This document shows positions 2,869 to 15,649 of a stretch of 28,519 nucleotides of DNA, piece after piece. Numbering within the stretch: position 1 is the first letter of the stretch; each line of letters begins with the position of its first letter. Under the pieces are notes generated by a model. The model worked only from the letters and a program-made list of their open reading frames with translations. It did no database searches and had not been told where the DNA came from. Location: positions 1 through 28,519 of IMG/VR virus record IMGVR_UViG_3300037330_000113; one strand, 5' to 3'. Source of the stretch: a virus. The position numbers were made by a program, and so were the translations under genes.

Positions 2869-4017
2869 TTAATCGGCAGCCTTTCCGTTGAAAATCTCGT
2901 GCAACATGGCCGGGATCAGAGCCTCCACGTCATTTGCCGTGCTGGCGCGGATGGCGCGAGCTTCTCGGGCCTTGGTCTGGATGCTGTTGAACCAATGCTG
3001 ATGGTTGAATGGTGGCGCAGGGACTGTGATTGCTTCCAGTGCGTTTTGGCCGAGAGTGCGATTCCGGTCTGCACTGCCAGGGGATGCGGCTTGAACTTTG
3101 CTGATGCCTTCATGGGTCTGGAGGTAAAACCAAATGAATTCGGCTGTGGCGAGTCCATCAACAGGTACGCATGTCAGGTATCGGTGAGACCCAACCCGAC
3201 CATGATCGTTGGGACCAGCAACAGCAAACGCGCCCTCCCAAGCCTTGATATTGCTGAATACTAGGTCGCCTTCCTGAACAAGGAAGGGCTTCTGCCAACT
3301 TACTTCCGCGCCAACCAAGTCCGGTTTGTGAAACGTTCCCCGACCGAATGAGCGGACACCAAGCTCGGGATAGACGCCATCAAGGTCAACCTCGACCTGG
3401 CGGCGCACCAAAGGGGCGACTACGGACATGGGGCGCAGGGGGGCGCCGTCGATAGCGCGCTGGAAGGCCTTCAACAGCATGGCCTGCGTTTCGCGTTCGG
3501 TGGCTTCGATGGCGCGACGGCGTTCGTCCACTAGTGCCGCGACTGTGTCGAGTCGCTGGACGATGCGGCGCTGCTCGTCGAGAGACGGGAGCGGCACCAC
3601 CATTTTCAGGAATTTCTCTTCCTTCATGCGCACGCGGTTTGTCGACCCCTCGCTCGCTCGGCGACAAAGGTCGACGAACTCAGGAGTGCGCGAATACCAC
3701 TCGAAGTAATGCGGCAGCACAGTTGAATCGTCGATGTCAAAGCACGGGAAATCATTACTGACTAATGCCCCGTCCAACTCGACCGGAACGACACCAAAAG
3801 CGCCATGACGGGCATCGATCCTAGAAATCAGAAACTGACCAGCCTTGGCACAAAACTGACGCGGGGCTGCGATTGCCGCCCCCGGTACTTCGCCGCGAAG
3901 CGTCAGACCCTTTCCCCAAAGGCGTGCAGTGATCTGCTTATATTGCACATCTGGTGCGACTGGGACCCAGTCCTCTGACTTGGTCAGGAACCTGTCGATG
4001 GTGATCGTTCGCGCCAT
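2869..4017 (-). CDS. hsdS: Type I restriction-modification specificity subunit HsdS
   Basis: A 382-residue DNA-recognition subunit of a type I system. The layout is two target-recognition domains separated by a conserved helical spacer: TRD1 (residues 1 to about 145), the PLPSLDEQRRIVQRLD spacer (about 150-195), TRD2 (about 200-335), and a second helical repeat ending ALIPAMLHEIFNG. The probable start is ATG 4017-4015, overlapping the hsdM stop as TGATG; a GTG one codon upstream is an alternative. It is the last gene of hsdR-hsdM-hsdS. Its two TRDs set the bipartite target, which cannot be read from sequence alone. There is no sign of truncation or of a second recombining hsdS copy. Confidence 0.92.
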   Translation of the reverse strand: MARTITIDRFLTKSEDWVPVAPDVQYKQITARLWGKGLTLRGEVPGAAIAAPRQFCAKAGQFLISRIDARHGAFGVVPVELDGALVSNDFPCFDIDDSTVLPHYFEWYSRTPEFVDLCRRASEGSTNRVRMKEEKFLKMVVPLPSLDEQRRIVQRLDTVAALVDERRRAIEATERETQAMLLKAFQRAIDGAPLRPMSVVAPLVRRQVEVDLDGVYPELGVRSFGRGTFHKPDLVGAEVSWQKPFLVQEGDLVFSNIKAWEGAFAVAGPNDHGRVGSHRYLTCVPVDGLATAEFIWFYLQTHEGISKVQAASPGSADRNRTLGQNALEAITVPAPPFNHQHWFNSIQTKAREARAIRASTANDVEALIPAMLHEIFNGKAAD

Positions 4018-5582
4018 CACAGGCGCTCTGCCAGAGTGGCCTTGATCTCGTCCATTATACCAAGAATCCGCTCTTCCTGCGCGATGATCGCGTCGACAAT
4101 CTCTGTTGGCGCACGATGGTCGGCGACCTCGCCTGAATGTGGATTTTTGATGTCGAGGTTGCAGGCCGTGACGCGACCCTGTGCATCGCGCTGGATCAGG
4201 TCAGCGGCCGAAATCTTCCAGGCGCGCTCGTTTTCCTCGCGGTTGTTCCACCAGGCAAGGCAGCCTGCGAACTCTTCGTAGGCCATCGGTGCCGTCTTTG
4301 AGTATTTCTTGCGGCCCTCGGGCAAGGGCAACTCATAGTACCAGATGTCCTTCGTCGGGCCGCTGGTGTCAAAGAAGATCAGGTTCGCCGGGATATCGGT
4401 ATAGGGCGCGAACACTCCTTCTCGCAGCCGAACGACGGTGTGCAGGTTGAATTTTTCGAGCAGGTCGGCCTTGATCCGTGCCGAAATCCCGTCACCGAAC
4501 AGCGTGCCATGCGGGACAACGACCGCAGCGCGCCCGCGCCCGGCACGCTTTAGCCGCCGCATGATCAGCTGCAGGAACAGCAGCGCCGTCTCGGCGGTGC
4601 GCCGATCCTCGGGGAAGTTGTTGAGGGTGCCCGCTTCTTCTTCGCCGCCGAAGGGCGGGTTGGTCAGGATGACATTGACCCGCTGATCCTCGCCGATCTC
4701 TGCCAGCCGGAAGCGCAAGGAGTTGCCGGGGTCGATGCGCGGGGCATGCAGACCATGCAGGAGGAGATTCAACTGCGACAGCAGAAACGGCAGCGACTTG
4801 GCCTCGCCACCCTGAACGCTTTCGTCCTGAAGCACGCGACGCTTTTCCACTGTGTCGGCTTGGCGTTCGAGGTGCAAATAGGCTTCCGTCAGAAAGCCGC
4901 CTGTGCCACAGGCCGGATCGAGGATGGTCTCGCCGAGTTTGGGATCCGTCACCTCGACCATGAAGCGCACGACAGGCCGAGGCGTGTAGAACTCGCCCGA
5001 GTCCCCCGCCGCGTCGCGCATCTCGCGCAGCAGCGTCTCGTAAAGGCGGCCGAGGGTGTGTACCTCTTCGGAGGAGTCGAAATGGATGCCGTCGATCAGG
5101 TTAACCACGTCGCGCAGCAGGTAGCCGCTTTCCATCCGGTTGGCGAAGCCCTGAAAGACGGTGGCAATCACGTCGCGCCGTTCACGTCGGCCGTTGTCGC
5201 CGCGCAGAGCACGCAGATAGGCAAACAGACCAGGACCGCGCGTGCCGTCTGGCAGTTCGGTCATTTCGGCAACGAGGAATGACAGCAGGTCGGGCCCGGT
5301 GATGCCGTCAGCGTCGGCCGCCCAATCGCGCCAGCGATACGGGGACTCAATGATCGAGCGATAGTCCTTCCCCGACATTTCCGCACGCCCTTCCTCGATC
5401 CGCTCCATGTCGTCGAGGAACTTCAGGAACATGATCCAGGTCAGCATCGGCAGGCGGTCGAGATCGCCGTTCAGCCCCTTGTCCTTGCGCATGATCTTGC
5501 GCGCGGACTTGATGATGCTGTCGAGACGCTGGGCAGTGGTCAGTTGCTTCGGCGCAGCCTTCTTGCGGGCGGTTGTGGCCAA
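4017..5582 (-). CDS. hsdM: Type I restriction-modification DNA methyltransferase HsdM
   Basis: A 521-residue N6-adenine methyltransferase subunit. It has an HsdM N-terminal helical domain (about 15-150), the FYTPRPVVRFMV segment (about 198-209), SAM-binding motif I DPACGTGGF (222-230) and catalytic NPPF (308-311), the gamma-class order. Length is normal for the family. The start is TTG at 5582-5580: an AAGGAG Shine-Dalgarno lies 7 bases upstream in the 17-base gap after hsdR, and no in-frame ATG fits. The 3' end is coupled to hsdS through TGATG. With HsdS it methylates host sites; with HsdR it forms the restriction complex. All motifs are intact, so the system looks functional. Confidence 0.95.
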   Translation of the reverse strand: MATTARKKAAPKQLTTAQRLDSIIKSARKIMRKDKGLNGDLDRLPMLTWIMFLKFLDDMERIEEGRAEMSGKDYRSIIESPYRWRDWAADADGITGPDLLSFLVAEMTELPDGTRGPGLFAYLRALRGDNGRRERRDVIATVFQGFANRMESGYLLRDVVNLIDGIHFDSSEEVHTLGRLYETLLREMRDAAGDSGEFYTPRPVVRFMVEVTDPKLGETILDPACGTGGFLTEAYLHLERQADTVEKRRVLQDESVQGGEAKSLPFLLSQLNLLLHGLHAPRIDPGNSLRFRLAEIGEDQRVNVILTNPPFGGEEEAGTLNNFPEDRRTAETALLFLQLIMRRLKRAGRGRAAVVVPHGTLFGDGISARIKADLLEKFNLHTVVRLREGVFAPYTDIPANLIFFDTSGPTKDIWYYELPLPEGRKKYSKTAPMAYEEFAGCLAWWNNREENERAWKISAADLIQRDAQGRVTACNLDIKNPHSGEVADHRAPTEIVDAIIAQEERILGIMDEIKATLAERL

Positions 5583-5589
5583 TTTGGCA

Positions 5590-5595
5590 CTCCTT
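5590..5595 (-). promoter_or_regulatory. Shine-Dalgarno that decides the hsdM TTG start
   Basis: On the minus strand AAGGAG is followed by 7 bases and then TTG (5582-5580). It is the only strong ribosome-binding site between the hsdR stop and the hsdM open frame, and supports TTG initiation. Confidence 0.6.
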
Positions 5596-5599
5596 CAAT

Positions 5600-7969
5600 T
5601 CAAGCGGTGTAGAGCAGACGCTGCAGCTCGGTGACGGCGCTGCGCAGCTCCTTGCCGCCGCCAAAGCGGGCGGCAATTTCAATTACATTACCCCATTCGT
5701 TAAATGGAGGAATTTCAAGGAAGTCGGGCAGCTTGAACTGAGCACTGCCGTGTTCGGCATATTTCTCGAGCAAGGCATCCAGAACTTCACGGGCATCAGG
5801 CCCGAAGCAGGCCAGAAAGTCGTCCTGTTCCCGCAGCAGGCGGTCCGCGCGCTCGCGGCGGGTGCGCAACGGCGCGTTATAGGCAAGATGGCAAAGAAGG
5901 TCGAACGGGTCGGCCTCCGGCTTTCCGACAGCATCGGCAAGGGAGTCGAGCTCGATACCTTTCTCCTCCAGCCGTTCGACGATCTCGGCCCGGCGCTCAG
6001 GATCAAGCCAGTCTCTCCGCAGTTCCGAGGCATTGGGATACAGGGTGCGGACCTTGTCGCCGGTATAGTCAGTCAGCTGGCGGCAGGCGAGCTGCCGTCC
6101 ATCGGAGTCGAGGTCGTAAACGAGGTGTCGGACAATCGAAACCTCACCGCCATCGACATAGAATTTGCGGGGGCCGGCCTCTGGCTCGTCGTCGAGATCG
6201 ACCGGTCCATCCGGAATATCCGGAAAATCGTCGGGATCCAGCGCCACTTCCTCAATCTCGCGCTCTTCAACGACATCACCTTCTGCATTGATCACCGTTT
6301 CATCTTCGCGAACGGGATCGCCGTCGAACGCCGGGTCGGCGAACATTCGTGTCGCGGTACCGGTGTAGTCGATGATGTTGAAGGCGAGCTTCCCATAGTC
6401 GGCCCTGAGGCGCGTCCCGCGTCCTATGATCTGCTTGAACTCCGGCATGGAGCCCACGACCCGGGCCAGCACAACGTTCTTGCAGGTCGGGGCGTCGACG
6501 CCGGTGGTCAAAAGCTGCGACGTGGTGAGGATGACCGGCGTCTGGGTTTCGACATCCTGGAACTTGGCCCGGTGCGCGCTGCCAACATCACCCTCATCGG
6601 ATGTTACGCGGCAAACGTAGTCAGGGTGATCCTTCACCAGATCGGTGTTCAAGGCGGCGAGCGCCTGGCGCATTTCGAGCGCGTGTTCCTGGTCGACGCA
6701 GAAGACGATGGTTTTGGCGAAGCGATCAGTCTCTGCCATGAAGCCCGCCAAGTGTTTCGCAATGGCCTGCGTCCTCGCACGAAGCGCCACGACCCGCTCG
6801 AAGTCTCGCGTCGAATATTCGGTATCAGGGATTTCGCGTCCGTAACGGTCGAGTTCGCCCCGCGTCGGGCGCCATCCGGCGGCGTCGTAGTCCGAGATGA
6901 CACGGTGAACGCGGTACGGAGCGAGGAAGCCGTCGGCGATGCCCTGCGCGAGACTGTATTCGTAAAGTGGATCGCCGAAGTAGTTGTAGGTGTCGAGGTT
7001 TTCCTCGCGCCGCGGCGTCGCCGTCATTCCGATCTGGGTTGCTGGCGCGAACCATTCGAGAATCTCGCGCCAATTGCTGTCGTCACGCGCGCTGCCCCGG
7101 TGGCACTCGTCGATTATTATGAGGTCGAAAAAATCCCGTGCATATTCGCGATAGAGGCCAGGACGATTTTCATCTCGCGCAATGGACTGGTAGATTGCGA
7201 AATATATATCGCGGCTTTTAACAGCTACGCCGCCAGCGATTTTATGTCGGGCATCGCCGAATGGGCTGAAATCCTTCGCCATCGGATCGTCGACAAGCAC
7301 GTTTCGGTCGGCGAGAAACAAGATCTTCGGGTTGCGGTTGACTCCCTTCGAATTCCAACGTGCCGACCAGAGCTTCCAGCAGATCTGGAAGGCGACAGCG
7401 GTCTTGCCTGCCCCCGTGCACAAGGTCAGGAGCGCCCGCTTCCTGCCCTGCAGCGCAGCCTGAACGGCGCGGTTTACGGCGATCTCCTGATAATAACGCA
7501 GGGGCTTCGACCTGTCAGGAAACGTGGGTGTCAGCAGCCGTTCCGCCACCTCGTCATCGACGATACCCTCGGCACGACGCAGACGCGCCCAGAGATCAGC
7601 GGGCGATGGGAAATCCCTGATCATTCGCTCAATGCCGGTTGTATAGTCGAATTCGACAATTTCGATGCCATTGGTGGAATAAGCGAACCGAAGACCGAGA
7701 ATTTCGGCATACTCCTTGGCTTGCTGAAGCCCTTCAGCCGCATGGCTGTAACGGGACTTGGCCTCGACAACTGCTATCGAGAAATCGGGATTGTATCGGA
7801 GCAGGTAGTCGGATCGCTTCTGCTTACCACGACGCGCCTTGCCACCAATGAATACCACACGGCCGTCAGTAAAAGTTCTCTGCTCATTTATTGCGTGCGG
7901 GCGATCATCCCAACCCGCTGCTTGCAGCTTGGGGACGACGAATTTCCTGCAGGTATCGGCCTCATTCAT
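5600..7969 (-). CDS. hsdR: Type I restriction endonuclease subunit HsdR (EcoEI-like)
   Basis: A 789-residue restriction and translocase subunit. The N-terminal PD-(D/E)xK nuclease has D54, PD61-62 and the E69-A-K71 triad. The SF2 motor has Walker A TGAGKT (185-190), DECH (287-290), MTATP and the late motif IIGRGTRLR. The C-terminal part resembles the EcoEI/type IB HsdR C-terminal domain, and the size fits that group rather than the roughly 1000-residue EcoKI/EcoR124 type. The start is taken at ATG 7969-7967 because GAGAAG lies 7 bases upstream; a TTG two codons earlier is less likely. First gene of the operon; the promoter should lie in 7970-8126, where I see no clear consensus. Confidence 0.93.
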   Translation of the reverse strand: MNEADTCRKFVVPKLQAAGWDDRPHAINEQRTFTDGRVVFIGGKARRGKQKRSDYLLRYNPDFSIAVVEAKSRYSHAAEGLQQAKEYAEILGLRFAYSTNGIEIVEFDYTTGIERMIRDFPSPADLWARLRRAEGIVDDEVAERLLTPTFPDRSKPLRYYQEIAVNRAVQAALQGRKRALLTLCTGAGKTAVAFQICWKLWSARWNSKGVNRNPKILFLADRNVLVDDPMAKDFSPFGDARHKIAGGVAVKSRDIYFAIYQSIARDENRPGLYREYARDFFDLIIIDECHRGSARDDSNWREILEWFAPATQIGMTATPRREENLDTYNYFGDPLYEYSLAQGIADGFLAPYRVHRVISDYDAAGWRPTRGELDRYGREIPDTEYSTRDFERVVALRARTQAIAKHLAGFMAETDRFAKTIVFCVDQEHALEMRQALAALNTDLVKDHPDYVCRVTSDEGDVGSAHRAKFQDVETQTPVILTTSQLLTTGVDAPTCKNVVLARVVGSMPEFKQIIGRGTRLRADYGKLAFNIIDYTGTATRMFADPAFDGDPVREDETVINAEGDVVEEREIEEVALDPDDFPDIPDGPVDLDDEPEAGPRKFYVDGGEVSIVRHLVYDLDSDGRQLACRQLTDYTGDKVRTLYPNASELRRDWLDPERRAEIVERLEEKGIELDSLADAVGKPEADPFDLLCHLAYNAPLRTRRERADRLLREQDDFLACFGPDAREVLDALLEKYAEHGSAQFKLPDFLEIPPFNEWGNVIEIAARFGGGKELRSAVTELQRLLYTA

Positions 7970-8126
7970 ACGCAATCTTCTCTGCCCGGTTTCAACCCGC
8001 CATCGAAAGGCTAATGGCTTGTCAAAGAAATGGGCTCATTTCAACGCGCAATTCTTTGGTTTTGAAGCTCTTTCGCCATACTCAAGTTTCCAGAACCTAC
8101 AGCCTGCCCGATCTTTGCCGCAAGCC

Positions 8127-8522
8127 CTATTGCGTCGTGCCACGCAGCCACATGCGTTGGCAGGCCCATTCATCTGGAAACTGTCCTCGCAGTGATTGAA
8201 GCGTCACGTCCGTCGGCTGTCGCCCCTCGAGGATCGCCTCGATTAAGTCGGGCGCTAGGAACGCGAGCCGAAACACGCGCGTAAGGTATGGTGCGGCGAT
8301 TCCTTCGCACTTTGCGAGATCCGCGATAGTGGCGAACTGGCCAGACTCCAGCATCCGTTTCCAGCGGAAAGCGCGGGCCAACGCCTTGATAAGGCTGTCA
8401 TCGGCTTGGCGACGGGTCTGCGCGCCTTCCGGCAAGACCATCTCCTTCCGCCCGCCGCGCTTAACGATACGGAACGGGACATGGATGTTGATGGTGTCTG
8501 GAATTGGCTTTACGCGGGTCAT
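8127..8522 (-). CDS. Small recombinase-associated protein, unknown function
   Basis: A 131-residue basic protein (MTRVKPIPDTINIHVPF...). The middle (about 70-105, FATIADLAKCEGIAAPYLTRVFRLAFLAPDLIEAIL) has the length and pattern of a helix-turn-helix followed by a second helix, suggesting DNA binding. Its ATG overlaps the recombinase stop by 4 nt (ATGA), so it is the last gene of a four-gene cassette. I have seen this protein type directly downstream of serine recombinases with the same YTRKSSEEG start, but know no assigned function. A recombination accessory or directionality factor is a reasonable guess, not a demonstrated role. Confidence 0.75.
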   Translation of the reverse strand: MTRVKPIPDTINIHVPFRIVKRGGRKEMVLPEGAQTRRQADDSLIKALARAFRWKRMLESGQFATIADLAKCEGIAAPYLTRVFRLAFLAPDLIEAILEGRQPTDVTLQSLRGQFPDEWACQRMWLRGTTQ

Positions 8523-9826
8523 GCAGCCTCTCCAACATCAGTGGCCATTTCGCGCGCCAGCGCAGTCAGCCCGTCCATTCGCAGTCGGACGTTCAGCCCC
8601 TCGGTGCCGATGTCGACCTGCTCGACCAGCAACGAGACAATTCGTGCCTGTTCGGCAGGGAACAACTCATCCCACAGCGGATCGAGCCGGGTTAGCGCAT
8701 CGACTGCATCCGCTTCAGTGATGCTGCCATCTTGCGCCTTGGCCGCTTTCCAAGTGCCCGCCACGATCTCGGGTTGCCGGAACACGGCGCGCAGTTGGGC
8801 GATGACGGCAGCTTCGATTTCGCCTGCTGGGACGCGCCCGACCGGGCAAGACCCGGCTCCATGCTTCAGCACGTTCTGGCTGACGTAATAGCGATACAGC
8901 CGTCCGCCCTTGCGGGTGTGGGTCGGCGAGAAAGCAGCGCCGTCGGGACCATAGAGCAGCCCTTTCAACAGCGAGGGCGTGTCGGCGCGGGTGTTTGCTG
9001 CCCGCTTGCGCGGGCTTTCCGTCAGGATGCTGTGAACGTTGTCCCAGACTTCGCGGTCGATGATCCCTTTGTGTTCGCCGGGGTAGCTGGTTCCCTTGTG
9101 AACTGCCTCGCCGATGTAAACCCGGTTGTTCAGCATCCGGTAGATGAACTTCTTGTCGATCCGATGGCCGCGAGCGGTCGTAACGCCGCGCTCGGCCAGT
9201 TCGCGCGCCAGCACTGTGCCAGATCCGATTTGGATGAATCGCGCGAAGACCCAGCGGACATGGGCGGCGTCTTCGGGGTTCTCCAGCAACTTGCGGTCCT
9301 TCACGATGTAACCCAGCGGTGGGCAGCCACCCATCCACATCCCCTTCATCCGGCTGGCGCGGACCTTGTCGCGGATTCGTTCGGCAGTCACCTCGCGCTC
9401 AAACTGCGCGAAACTTAGCAGGATGTTCAGTGTCAGGCGGCCCATAGAAGTCGTCGTGTTGAAGGACTGGGTCACGGAAACGAAGGTCACGCCATTCCGA
9501 TCAAACACCTCAACCAGCTTGGAAAAATCCATCAGCGAGCGGGACAGGCGGTCGATCTTGTAGACCACCACCACGTCGACCAGCCCGTCATCGACATCAG
9601 CAAGTAACCGTTTCAAGCCGGGCCGTTCCAGCGTGCCGCCGGAAATACCGCCATCGTCATACTGGTCGCGAACCAGCACCCAGCCTTCGGAACGCTGGCT
9701 GGCGATGTAGGATTCGCAAGCCTCGCGCTGGGCGTGCAGGCTGTTGAACTCCTGCTCCAGCCCTTCCTCGGAGGATTTGCGGGTATAAACCGCGCAGCGC
9801 AGCTTGCGGACGATAGGTTTGTTCAT
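8519..9826 (-). CDS. Serine recombinase (recombinase family, DUF4368/zinc-ribbon-less type)
   Basis: A 435-residue site-specific recombinase. The resolvase/invertase catalytic domain occupies about residues 1-155, with the catalytic serine in YTRKSSEEG and the helix-E regions DRLSRS and SFAQFEREVTAERIRDKV. The Recombinase domain follows (MGGCPPLGYI to about residue 275). The usual zinc-ribbon region (LLYGPDGAAFSPTHTRKGGRLYRYYVSQ) has lost its cysteine pairs, as is common in this subgroup. The start is ATG 9826-9824 after CGGAGGGCGGC; an upstream open stretch is in the DUF2924 gene and is not part of the protein. ATGA overlaps join it to the genes on both sides. Likely integrase/excisionase of the element or of its own small cassette; no att core was identified. 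Confidence 0.93.
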   Translation of the reverse strand: MNKPIVRKLRCAVYTRKSSEEGLEQEFNSLHAQREACESYIASQRSEGWVLVRDQYDDGGISGGTLERPGLKRLLADVDDGLVDVVVVYKIDRLSRSLMDFSKLVEVFDRNGVTFVSVTQSFNTTTSMGRLTLNILLSFAQFEREVTAERIRDKVRASRMKGMWMGGCPPLGYIVKDRKLLENPEDAAHVRWVFARFIQIGSGTVLARELAERGVTTARGHRIDKKFIYRMLNNRVYIGEAVHKGTSYPGEHKGIIDREVWDNVHSILTESPRKRAANTRADTPSLLKGLLYGPDGAAFSPTHTRKGGRLYRYYVSQNVLKHGAGSCPVGRVPAGEIEAAVIAQLRAVFRQPEIVAGTWKAAKAQDGSITEADAVDALTRLDPLWDELFPAEQARIVSLLVEQVDIGTEGLNVRLRMDGLTALAREMATDVGEAA

Positions 9827-10278
9827 GCCGCCCTCCGATGGTTTTTCAGTCCGAAGAACACCCAGCCGTTCCAGCGCGTGCCGGTGATAGCCCGTGCGAT
9901 GGCGGACAGAGACTGATATGGCCGCCCCTGCCATTCGAAGCCACCTTGCGTCACAGTGACGATCTGCTCGACGCCCTGCCATTCGCGCAGCAACCGGGTG
10001 CCGGTGATCGGACGGTCGCGATCAGCGCGGATGCGGCGGGTGGTGATGTTGCCGCCATCTAGCTGTTCCCCCAAGGCTTCCAGCCGCTTGATGGTTTCGG
10101 GTTTCAGCCCGCCATAGGCCAGTTCTTGGATGCGATAGGCCAGCCGGGATTCAAGGTAGCGGCGGTTGAAGGGCGGAGGTTCGGTTTCGAACAGGTCGCG
10201 CCACTGCGCCTTCAGCTCAAGCGTCGATGTTGTCTTCAGCGCTGCCAGGCGCGCGGGGATGGGATCGGGCTTCGTCAT
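9823..10278 (-). CDS. DUF2924 domain protein
   Basis: A 151-residue protein starting MTKPDPIPARLAALK at ATG 10278-10276, preceded by CGGAGA. It carries the DUF2924 pattern: LKAQWRDLFETEPPPFNRRYLESRLAYRIQELAYGG in pieces across residues about 18-55, then a basic GTRLLREWQG block and a C-terminal SLSAIARAITGTRWNGWVFFGL motif, which resembles a small DNA-binding fold. DUF2924 genes are typically found immediately upstream of serine recombinases in alphaproteobacteria, exactly as here, with a 4-nt overlap. Role unknown, presumably in recombination or its control. Confidence 0.88.
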   Translation of the reverse strand: MTKPDPIPARLAALKTTSTLELKAQWRDLFETEPPPFNRRYLESRLAYRIQELAYGGLKPETIKRLEALGEQLDGGNITTRRIRADRDRPITGTRLLREWQGVEQIVTVTQGGFEWQGRPYQSLSAIARAITGTRWNGWVFFGLKNHRRAA

Positions 10279-12950: not shown

Positions 12951-12993
12951 AACGGCTGATTATTGGAAAGGCTCCACATAGAGGAGCACTTCC

Positions 12994-13239
12994 ATGCCGA
13001 CTCCCTTCCCATCGCGCCAACCAGCCCTATCAAACTGGCCCACCGGCGCGAAACCCAAGCCCAATACCCTGAACCCGGAATGGCGCTGCACGCGCTGTGA
13101 CAAGCTGCTCGGCGTTTGCCGGGACGGCCGCATGCACCTGCGCTTTGCGCGGGGGCACGAGTATTTCGTGGGCTTCCCTGTCCAGGCCACCTGCCGCGGC
13201 TGCGGGACACTGAACCAAGCGTCCAACCCCTCTGGCTGA
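12994..13239 (+). CDS. com: Com-like zinc-finger regulator (phage Mu Com family)
   Basis: An 81-residue protein with GAGGAG 7 bases before its ATG. It has a CxxC pair (WRCTRCDKLLGV) and a second CxxC pair (ATCRGCGTLNQAS) about 35 residues later, the arrangement of Com proteins, including the characteristic CGTLN ending. In phage Mu, Com is an RNA-binding zinc finger that activates translation of the adjacent mom DNA-modification gene by changing mRNA structure at its start. Here the next gene, 100 bp downstream, has a perfect hairpin immediately before its ATG, but it encodes a sigma-like protein and not Mom. The N-terminal 25 residues are a Pro/Asn-rich extension. Confidence 0.75.
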   Translation: MPTPFPSRQPALSNWPTGAKPKPNTLNPEWRCTRCDKLLGVCRDGRMHLRFARGHEYFVGFPVQATCRGCGTLNQASNPSG

Positions 13240-13311
13240 CGCGCTCTACTACCACCACCCCCCTGAAATCGCAGAGACGCGCGACGTCCTGACCTGGCCA
13301 CGAAAAGGCGC

Positions 13312-13340
13312 TGGACGCCTGGCCGCAAGGCAGGCGTCCA
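13312..13340 (+). promoter_or_regulatory. Perfect hairpin abutting a start codon
   Basis: TGGACGCCTG (13312-13321) and CAGGCGTCCA (13331-13340) form a 10-bp perfect stem around a 9-base loop; base 13341 is the A of the ATG of the sigma-like gene. The only Shine-Dalgarno-like AAGG (13327-13330) is in the loop and the adjacent stem base. In mRNA this would structure the initiation region and could be a translational switch. Confidence 0.6.
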
Positions 13341-14063
13341 ATGTCTTTCGCATGGCACGAGATCCGTGATCAAATCATGCATTCCGCTTCCACCCTCAAC
13401 TTTCAGCGCAGCTTCGATGCCATCCGGCGCACGCAGGCCGCCATCGCGCCGTTCCGGGATCCGGCGACTTTGCTGGACGGGCTGCATCGCACAACCGGCG
13501 ATCCGGCCCGGAAGAACGTGATCCTCTCCGCACTGGTCGAGGCGGCGCAGGGCGACGGCCCCGCGTCCGACTGCGCCCTGACGATGCTGTTGCTGGCGCT
13601 CTGGCCTGGGCTCGACGCCATCCGGCGCCGGTCGCTCTGGCGCAGGATCGGTTCAGCCGACGAGATCGCGTCCGATGTGCTGTCGCGCACCACCGACGCG
13701 GTCCGCGGCCTCGACCTCGGGCGCGTCAACTGGATTGCGGCCACGGTGCTGCGGAACGTCGAGCGCGACATGATCCGAGCGCGCCAGCGCGACGCGGCGC
13801 GCGAGCATCTCGCCAGCGGCGCCGACCCCGACGAGGTGGCGGACACCGGCGACGGCGGGATCGGCGCGGCCGGGTACGCGCGCTTGAACGGCGCCGTGCG
13901 GAAGCTGCTCGGCGATGACGCCCTGCTGGTGATCCGCGTGGCGATCGAGGGCTTCTCGCAGGCCGAGGTGGCCGTCGAACTGGGGCTGACCGAGGCCGCC
14001 GCCCGCAAGCGGTACCAGCGCGCCATGCGCAAGCTGCGCGACGCCCTCCAGGAAATCCCCTGA
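13341..14063 (+). CDS. Sigma-70-like phage transcription factor
   Basis: A 240-residue protein. The C-terminal region (about 200-235, GFSQAEVAVELGLTEAAARKRYQRAMRKL) is a sigma region 4-type helix-turn-helix. Upstream, SADEIASDVLSRTTDAVRG through ATVLRNVERDMIRARQRD (about 105-160) resembles the region 2 layout of ECF-like factors. The N-terminal 100 residues are not recognised. It probably redirects host RNA polymerase or binds DNA for early gene control of the phage module. The start at ATG 13341 abuts a hairpin; an internal ATG at 13377 (codon 13) is the alternative start if the first is not used. Confidence 0.75.
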   Translation: MSFAWHEIRDQIMHSASTLNFQRSFDAIRRTQAAIAPFRDPATLLDGLHRTTGDPARKNVILSALVEAAQGDGPASDCALTMLLLALWPGLDAIRRRSLWRRIGSADEIASDVLSRTTDAVRGLDLGRVNWIAATVLRNVERDMIRARQRDAAREHLASGADPDEVADTGDGGIGAAGYARLNGAVRKLLGDDALLVIRVAIEGFSQAEVAVELGLTEAAARKRYQRAMRKLRDALQEIP

Positions 14064-14066
14064 GCC

Positions 14067-14141
14067 GATGTCCCGATCCGGTCCCGCCGGTGGCTTTTCC
14101 CATTCGAGCGCCCCGAGCGCCTTCCCTCCAACCGAAAGCAG
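14067..14141 (+). repeat. 75-bp intergenic repeat, copy A
   Basis: Begins GATGTCCCGATCCGG (14067-14081), ends its first block with GGTGGCTTTTCCC (14089-14101), and closes with CCTCCAACCGAAAGCAG (14125-14141) just before the next start codon. The same blocks in the same order and spacing occur at 15574-15649. In this copy the hairpin arm is degenerate. Confidence 0.7.
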
Positions 14142-15564: not shown

Positions 15565-15605
15565 GCCACCCCCGATGTCCCGATCCGGGCGCCGGGGTGG
15601 CTTTT
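15565..15605 (+). terminator. Intrinsic terminator-like hairpin after the ATPase gene
   Basis: GCCACCCC (15565-15572) and GGGGTGGC (15594-15601) form an 8-bp perfect stem, followed at once by TTTT (15602-15605). The loop contains a smaller CCCGATCCGGG hairpin. It lies 10 bp after the ATPase stop, yet the next gene has the same direction, so it may be an attenuator between them and not a full stop. Confidence 0.6.
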
Positions 15606-15649
15606 CCCCTCTGACGCCGCTGCGCGTCCCATCCTCCAACTGAAAGGAG
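15574..15649 (+). repeat. 75-bp intergenic repeat, copy B
   Basis: Shares with 14067-14141 the blocks GATGTCCCGATCCGG (15574-15588), GGTGGCTTTTCCC (15596-15608) and CCTCCAACTGAAAGGAG (15633-15649; 15 of 17 bases identical), with near-identical spacing. The last block here is the Shine-Dalgarno of the following gene. Confidence 0.7.

Follow-up and report, generated by a model that had tools for sequence, protein, structure and literature searches.

A near-invariant leader RNA between a Com-like gene and a sigma-like gene in alphaproteobacterial phages as a probable Com-type operator

The com-sigma locus

The window analysed in this work is the whole of an IMG/VR virus record of 28,519 bases. 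A gene for a small Com-like zinc-ribbon protein is followed by 101 nt and then by a gene for a sigma-like protein. The stretch between both genes contains a near-invariant noncoding leader that is named the com-sigma leader here. The coordinates of the genes, the leader, and the elements of the leader are shown in Table 1.

Table 1. Features of the com-sigma locus in the window.
Feature	Positions	Strand	Details and evidence
Gene of Com-like zinc-ribbon protein	12994..13239	+	81 aa, CxxC...CxxC; ORF, relatives with the leader downstream, profile-profile match
com-sigma leader	13264..13343	+	Around 78 nt, near-invariant, noncoding; column conservation, covariance-model survey
P1, first Com-type hairpin	13276..13288	+	GACG-[CGCGA]-CGTC; 13276-13279 with 13285-13288
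Helix A (alternative State II)	13283..13338	+	RNAalifold consensus; pairs 13283-13288/13333-13338, 13290-13291/13331-13332, 13293-13295/13328-13330, 13296-13299/13321-13324
SD1	13303..13308	+	AAAAGG here; 5' of P2; counts in 65 leaders
P1b, second Com-type hairpin	13307..13319	+	GGCG-[CTGGA]-CGCC; 13307-13310 with 13316-13319
P2, start-site hairpin	13312..13340	+	GNRA tetraloop 13325-13328, abuts the start codon
SD2 candidate	13327..13330	+	AAGG that spans parts of the GNRA loop and the upper stem; 10 nt upstream of the ATG
Gene of ECF-like sigma factor, probable target	13341..14063	+	240 aa; Sigma70_r4_2, profile search, AlphaFold fold matches

The conserved com-sigma module starts at around position 12,960 of the window. 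The opposite end of the record (2869-9982, 463-552) carries tRNA-Ser, type I restriction-modification-like genes, and a large serine recombinase. Two copies of an intercistronic element, CCGATGTCCCGATCCGG-N9-TGGCTTTTCCC with a hairpin and a T-run, are located at 14065-14101 and 15572-15608. Both copies are 86% identical and are placed after the sigma gene and after a Sak4-like gene, around 1.5 kb apart. The exact pattern was found in 290 of the 554 fetched loci, among which the same contigs are partly repeated. The element is possibly a phage attenuator or terminator-leader.

The Com-like protein

The Com-like protein has two CxxC pairs (C32/C35 and C67/C70). An earlier note on this DNA had described the 81-aa ORF as a Com-type two-CxxC protein, and homology to Com was confirmed at the profile level: the comparison of the Com profile with the Com-like protein using hhalign gave a probability of 97% (E 1.1e-10), and the CxxC pairs are separated by a single long gap in the alignment. 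The Pfam model PF10122 (Zn_ribbon_Com) gave 11.1 bits (E 0.28) for the copy in the window and 20.8 bits (E 2.6e-4) for a diverged copy, both below the curated cut-off of 22.9. The CxxC pairs are separated by 31 residues, compared to 16 in Mu, and the spacing is thus not a short one. Judged from these profiles, the homology of the Com-like protein to Com is distant, with an insertion between the CxxC pairs. The fold search with the model of the Com-like protein gave no informative match.

A second Com-like subtype (CHDCGRLLG...CPGCGSLN) that is around 42% identical to that of the window was identified in L005, L009, L041, L042, L047, L048, L502, and L510, where the leader and the sigma type that follow it are the same as in the window. 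The subtypes are distributed as if com alleles had been exchanged at the leader.

The sigma-like protein and its translation start

The downstream protein looks like an ECF sigma factor in its region 4 and in its overall fold. Region 4 was matched by PF08281 (Sigma70_r4_2; E 5e-8, 32.8 bits, cut-off 25.7), and for region 2, residues 106-236 were spanned by TIGR02937 with 33.2 bits, which is below 42.9. The profile search with the sigma-like protein matched ECF sigma chains. The AlphaFold model has a pLDDT of 84, and sigma factors rank first among the folds that it matches (prob 0.99-1.00, best E 2.7e-3). The protein differs from ECF sigma factors in that it has an extra N-terminal helical part of around 100 residues and a weak region 2. 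No anti-sigma gene was recognised next to the sigma-like gene.

The start of the sigma-like gene at 13341 is ATG, GTG, or TTG in all 99 distinct aligned loci, which are the basis of the conservation and start codon counts in this work. Translation from the internal ATG at 13377, which the earlier note had named as a result that would speak against its proposal, is ruled out, as this ATG is lost in 15 of the 99 loci.

Two candidate Shine-Dalgarno sequences precede the start. It had been claimed that the AAGG in the loop of the start-site hairpin is the only one. This claim does not hold, as AAAAGG lies upstream (SD1 in Table 1) and a sequence of the SD1 type is present in 64 of 65 leaders (AAGG in 53, AGGAGG in 6, GGAGG in 3, and GAGG in 2; other in 1). 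SD1 is AGGAGG in several distant relatives. The AAGG of SD2 is present in 60/65 leaders. A possible pairing of SD1 with codons 2-5 (P3) has 86% of its cells paired, a signal that is weak against shuffles and confounded with coding.

Conservation and distribution of the leader

The mean column conservation of positions 13265-13340 is 0.969 among the 99 sequences, compared to 0.863 for the third codon positions of com and 0.767 for those of sigma. The leader is also found 5' of sigma homologues with 37-50% identity. No curated RNA family in Rfam matched the leader (at E 1). The region around 13312-13340 folds far better than shuffles (z -3.98, 0/200), and the hairpin at these positions is one part of the larger leader. 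The earlier note had taken this single hairpin as the operator. It is replaced here by a leader of around 78 nt with two Com-motif hairpins (P1 and P1b).

The near-invariant com-sigma RNA is found in phages and prophages of many alphaproteobacteria. Relatives that were identified by searching with both proteins are located on viral and bacterial contigs, mostly of Rhodobacterales and Hyphomicrobiales; several of these loci come from metagenome bins whose host is uncertain. The genome survey used a covariance model of the leader (R1). Of 298 genomes sampled within the family to which a Paracoccus genome belongs, 16 carry the leader; the corresponding sample from its class gave 4 of 385. Each of the survey loci inspected has a com-like gene upstream and a sigma-like gene downstream of the leader, and the three were together in the loci examined. 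A role of the leader as a general element beside other genes was rejected, as strong covariance-model matches in the genome surveys were found at the com-sigma locus and in no other context. The named phage collections gave no match, and the plasmid collection gave a match in one record (Shinella). The viral scan with the L279 sigma protein as the sole query gave no match.

One locus, L319 from a Gemmobacter MAG, departs from this arrangement. The sequence 3' of com jumps from GGCCACGAG of the leader into the sigma coding region, and P2 and the start codon are gone. This is either a natural deletion or an assembly fault.

Hairpins of the leader

The anatomy of the leader was derived from 65 diverse leaders (alignment A4). 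These leaders are related, and the pair counts thus overstate the number of independent events.

P1 consists of 4 pairs that are 100% paired in the 65 leaders. P1 exhibits covariation, with A-U in 53 and G-C in 12 of the 65 leaders, together with U-G and G-U variants. Its loop is C-N-Y-G-A, where C and G are invariant, A is present in 64/65 leaders, and NN is variable. P1b is a direct repeat of P1 and its cells are 99% paired. The sequence AGAGGCGCNNGACGCCC occurs twice in distant leaders, and both copies are identical in L509 (AGAGGCGCGAGACGCCC). P1b overlaps SD1 and the 5' arm of P2. GGCGC at 13307-13311 is outside P2 and is nevertheless conserved, for which P1b accounts.

The arms of P2, TGGACGCCTG (13312-13321) and CAGGCGTCCA (13331-13340), form a perfect 10-bp stem. 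The earlier note was exact on this stem and on the contact between base 13340 and the ATG at 13341. Across the leaders, the end of P2 is contiguous with the start codon or 1-3 nt from it. For the apex of P2, a reading as an internal loop topped by GCC-GNRA-GGC is better than one as a 10-bp stem with a 9-nt loop, as the pair 13320/13332 is broken in 12/65 leaders and the tetraloop is GCAA in 47, GAAA in 5, GTCA in 4, GGAA in 3, and GTAA in 2 of the leaders. The inner pairs of P2 are near-invariant, and the two outer pairs vary, with compensation and with breaks. The covariation that had been proposed as a check on the hairpin was therefore found in P1 and only partly in the stem at 13312-13340. 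The two most divergent leaders are L424 and L426; in L426, P1 and the outer part of P2 are kept and the apex of P2 is changed.

P1 and P2 together have a covariation score of 0.102, which is above all 500 shuffles (0.059), and 96.8% of their cells pair, compared to at most 49% in slid versions. P1b and P2 are mutually exclusive, which suggests a translational switch. RNAalifold prefers a different arrangement in which P1b is formed and the 3' arm is engaged by copy 1 of the repeat (helix A). Helix A and P1b have 98.7% of their cells paired, with 2 pairs that changed on both sides, and the comparative evidence for State II is positive but modest. Both arrangements are near isoenergetic, with mean energies of -23.8 kcal/mol for P1 and P2 and -22.4 kcal/mol for helix A and P1b.

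Com loop motif in the leaders of recognised Com genes

According to a study by in vitro selection and probing (SELEX/SHAPE), the motif recognised by Com is CC(N)2-3GAG within the loop of a hairpin, where C-G closes the loop on a stem of 3-4 bp (PMC6483171). The Mu site is AUGC[CUGCGA]GCAU just 5' of the initiation hairpin, and the binding of Com to the hairpin has been disputed (PMC6483171). The constant C, G, and A of the P1 and P1b loops, with free NN, equal this published motif. The leaders of recognised Com genes were therefore tested for the motif.

The classic set consists of 26 distinct leaders from PF10122 loci and phages. A hairpin with a C(N)2-3GA loop is present in 24 of the 26 leaders (dinucleotide shuffle mean 1.1, max 5), and two such hairpins are present in 8 (shuffle mean 0.03). 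Of 63 other loop patterns, the most frequent one reached 5 of the 26. The classic stems covary, with 17 different stems. The leaders of B3, UMP151, JD024, and Mcat3 have two hairpins each, whose spacing and placement resemble those in the window; the Mu leader has a single one. The Mu region is unremarkable by folding energy alone (z 0.56).

Two Com-motif hairpins are present in 69/73 com-sigma leaders and in 0.1% of the shuffled versions of the leader in the window. The loop is closed by G-C in 141 of 142 com-sigma hairpins, compared to C-G in 30 of 32 classic hairpins, which suggests a changed specificity.

Proposed mechanism and alternative explanations

The com-sigma leader is very probably a Com-type operator that is variant in its protein, its loop-closing pair, and its target. 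The sigma gene is, with good probability, under translational control. The whole explanation that we favour, in which the RNA between com and sigma is a Com-type translational operator and the Com-like protein controls initiation on the sigma gene, is judged likely from comparative sequence evidence. Control of the sigma-like gene in the manner of com-mom had been proposed in the earlier note. The Com-motif hairpins, the remote Com homology, and the joint retention of com, leader, and sigma argue for this part of the proposal, whereas a sole Shine-Dalgarno sequence in the loop and a lone hairpin as the operator were given up.

In the proposed mechanism, the Com-like protein from the upstream gene would bind P1 and P1b, and the bound protein would decide whether ribosomes start on the sigma gene. 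The 3' arm GGCGUC (13333-13338) together with the apex would hide SD2. This arm could be captured by either repeat, by copy 2 in P2 or by copy 1 in helix A. Com would hold both repeats as hairpins, ideally during RNA synthesis, and would leave the 3' arm without both partners, such that SD2 and the AUG could be freed. Once made, the sigma-like factor could serve to read phage genes. Forcing both Com hairpins in a thermodynamic calculation cost 14.6 +- 3.2 kcal/mol and did not raise the accessibility of SD2 and the start codon. As the calculation showed no freed start site, the freeing step would rest on the energy of the protein and on co-transcriptional folding. The better conservation of SD1 than of SD2 as a Shine-Dalgarno sequence speaks against activation. 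Activation is nevertheless the favoured direction by analogy with Mu, at about even odds. A more specific proposal is offered tentatively, with considerable doubt. Each of two near-identical Com hairpins could lock the one sequestering arm, and the arm would be released only if Com held both of them. Production of a sigma factor would be gated in this way in phages of alphaproteobacteria, and the use of tandem hairpins would be widespread among Com operators.

The use of SD1 in a split ribosome-binding site, with Com as a repressor, is an unlikely alternative that has to be weighed. P2 would fold out the 29 nt up to the AUG, and Com on P1b, which overlaps SD1, would hide SD1 and break P2, such that sigma synthesis would be turned off as Com accumulates. 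The order of SD1 (13303-13308), P2 (13312-13340), and ATG (13341) is that of a split site, as in T4 genes 38 and 25 (PMC3014915), where a hairpin also lies between the Shine-Dalgarno sequence and the start codon. The hairpin here differs from those of T4 in that it lies within a probable Com-type operator that is able to refold. The end of P2 is close to the start codon everywhere, and SD1, besides its presence in 64/65 leaders, is canonical in distant ones including those with degraded SD2 (L426 and the L423 group). However, SD1 would be only 3 nt from the AUG with P2 formed, and it can pair with codons 2-5 and hence be hidden. Known Com is also an activator, and the classic operators inspected have the Shine-Dalgarno sequence 3' of the second Com hairpin, which matches SD2 and not SD1.

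It is very improbable that Com is a mere neighbour and that the choice of P1 and P1b or of P2 and helix A answers another ligand, temperature, a host protein, or the sigma protein. The motif in the loops is that of Com and is found again in the leaders of recognised Com genes, and strong leader matches were found only with an adjacent com-like gene, although such control would be compatible with near-isoenergetic folds and with the same leader beside two Com subtypes (the L005 group). A DNA element (operator, replication origin, or recombination linker) with palindromes that act in duplex DNA and with incidental RNA folds can be given hardly any credence, as a DNA site does not require the fixed orientation, the fixed contact with the start codon, the tolerated G-U pairs, the GNRA-type loop, and the Com-type loops, even if the near-complete nucleotide invariance and the position at the boundary of interchangeable com and sigma alleles would suit it.

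Comparison with Mu com-mom and significance

The Com-type translational operator favoured here shares three characteristics with com-mom of Mu (also of D108, and with Com genes before Mom-like or methylase genes in Pseudomonas and E. coli phages). Both have a small CCCC zinc protein directly upstream of the target, C(N)2-3GA loop hairpins upstream of the target start, and an initiation-site hairpin at the start codon (the TIS in Mu and P2 here). However, the target here is an ECF-like sigma factor gene and not a DNA-modification gene, and nearly all leaders here have two hairpins, of which the second overlaps the start-site hairpin. The loop-closing pair is G-C here and C-G there, the Com-like protein here has the insertion between its CxxC pairs, and the leader here does not overlap the com ORF and hardly varies.

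In the annotated Com systems inspected and the papers found, Com controls DNA-modification genes, and where a function is annotated for the gene after a Com gene of the classic phages, it is that of a Mom-like or methylase gene. No earlier report of tandem Com hairpins or of sigma targets was found in the literature, in which subscription journals were thinly covered such that reports may be missed. If the proposed operator is true, a branch of Com that controls a sigma factor would place this regulator at the top of a transcription programme of the phage, and more than 100 natural variants are available for comparison. The C(N)2-3GA hairpins, which are often in tandem and have covarying stems, are independent support for the motif that was obtained in vitro (PMC6483171), and with this comparative result on Com operators it becomes practical to predict Com targets. 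The inversion of the pair that closes the loop offers a natural test of RNA loop recognition by a zinc ribbon.

A leader with three C(N)2-3GA hairpins was also identified in L528, where it follows a PF10122 Com gene and precedes an ORF. This ORF is possibly another Com target that is not a methylase.
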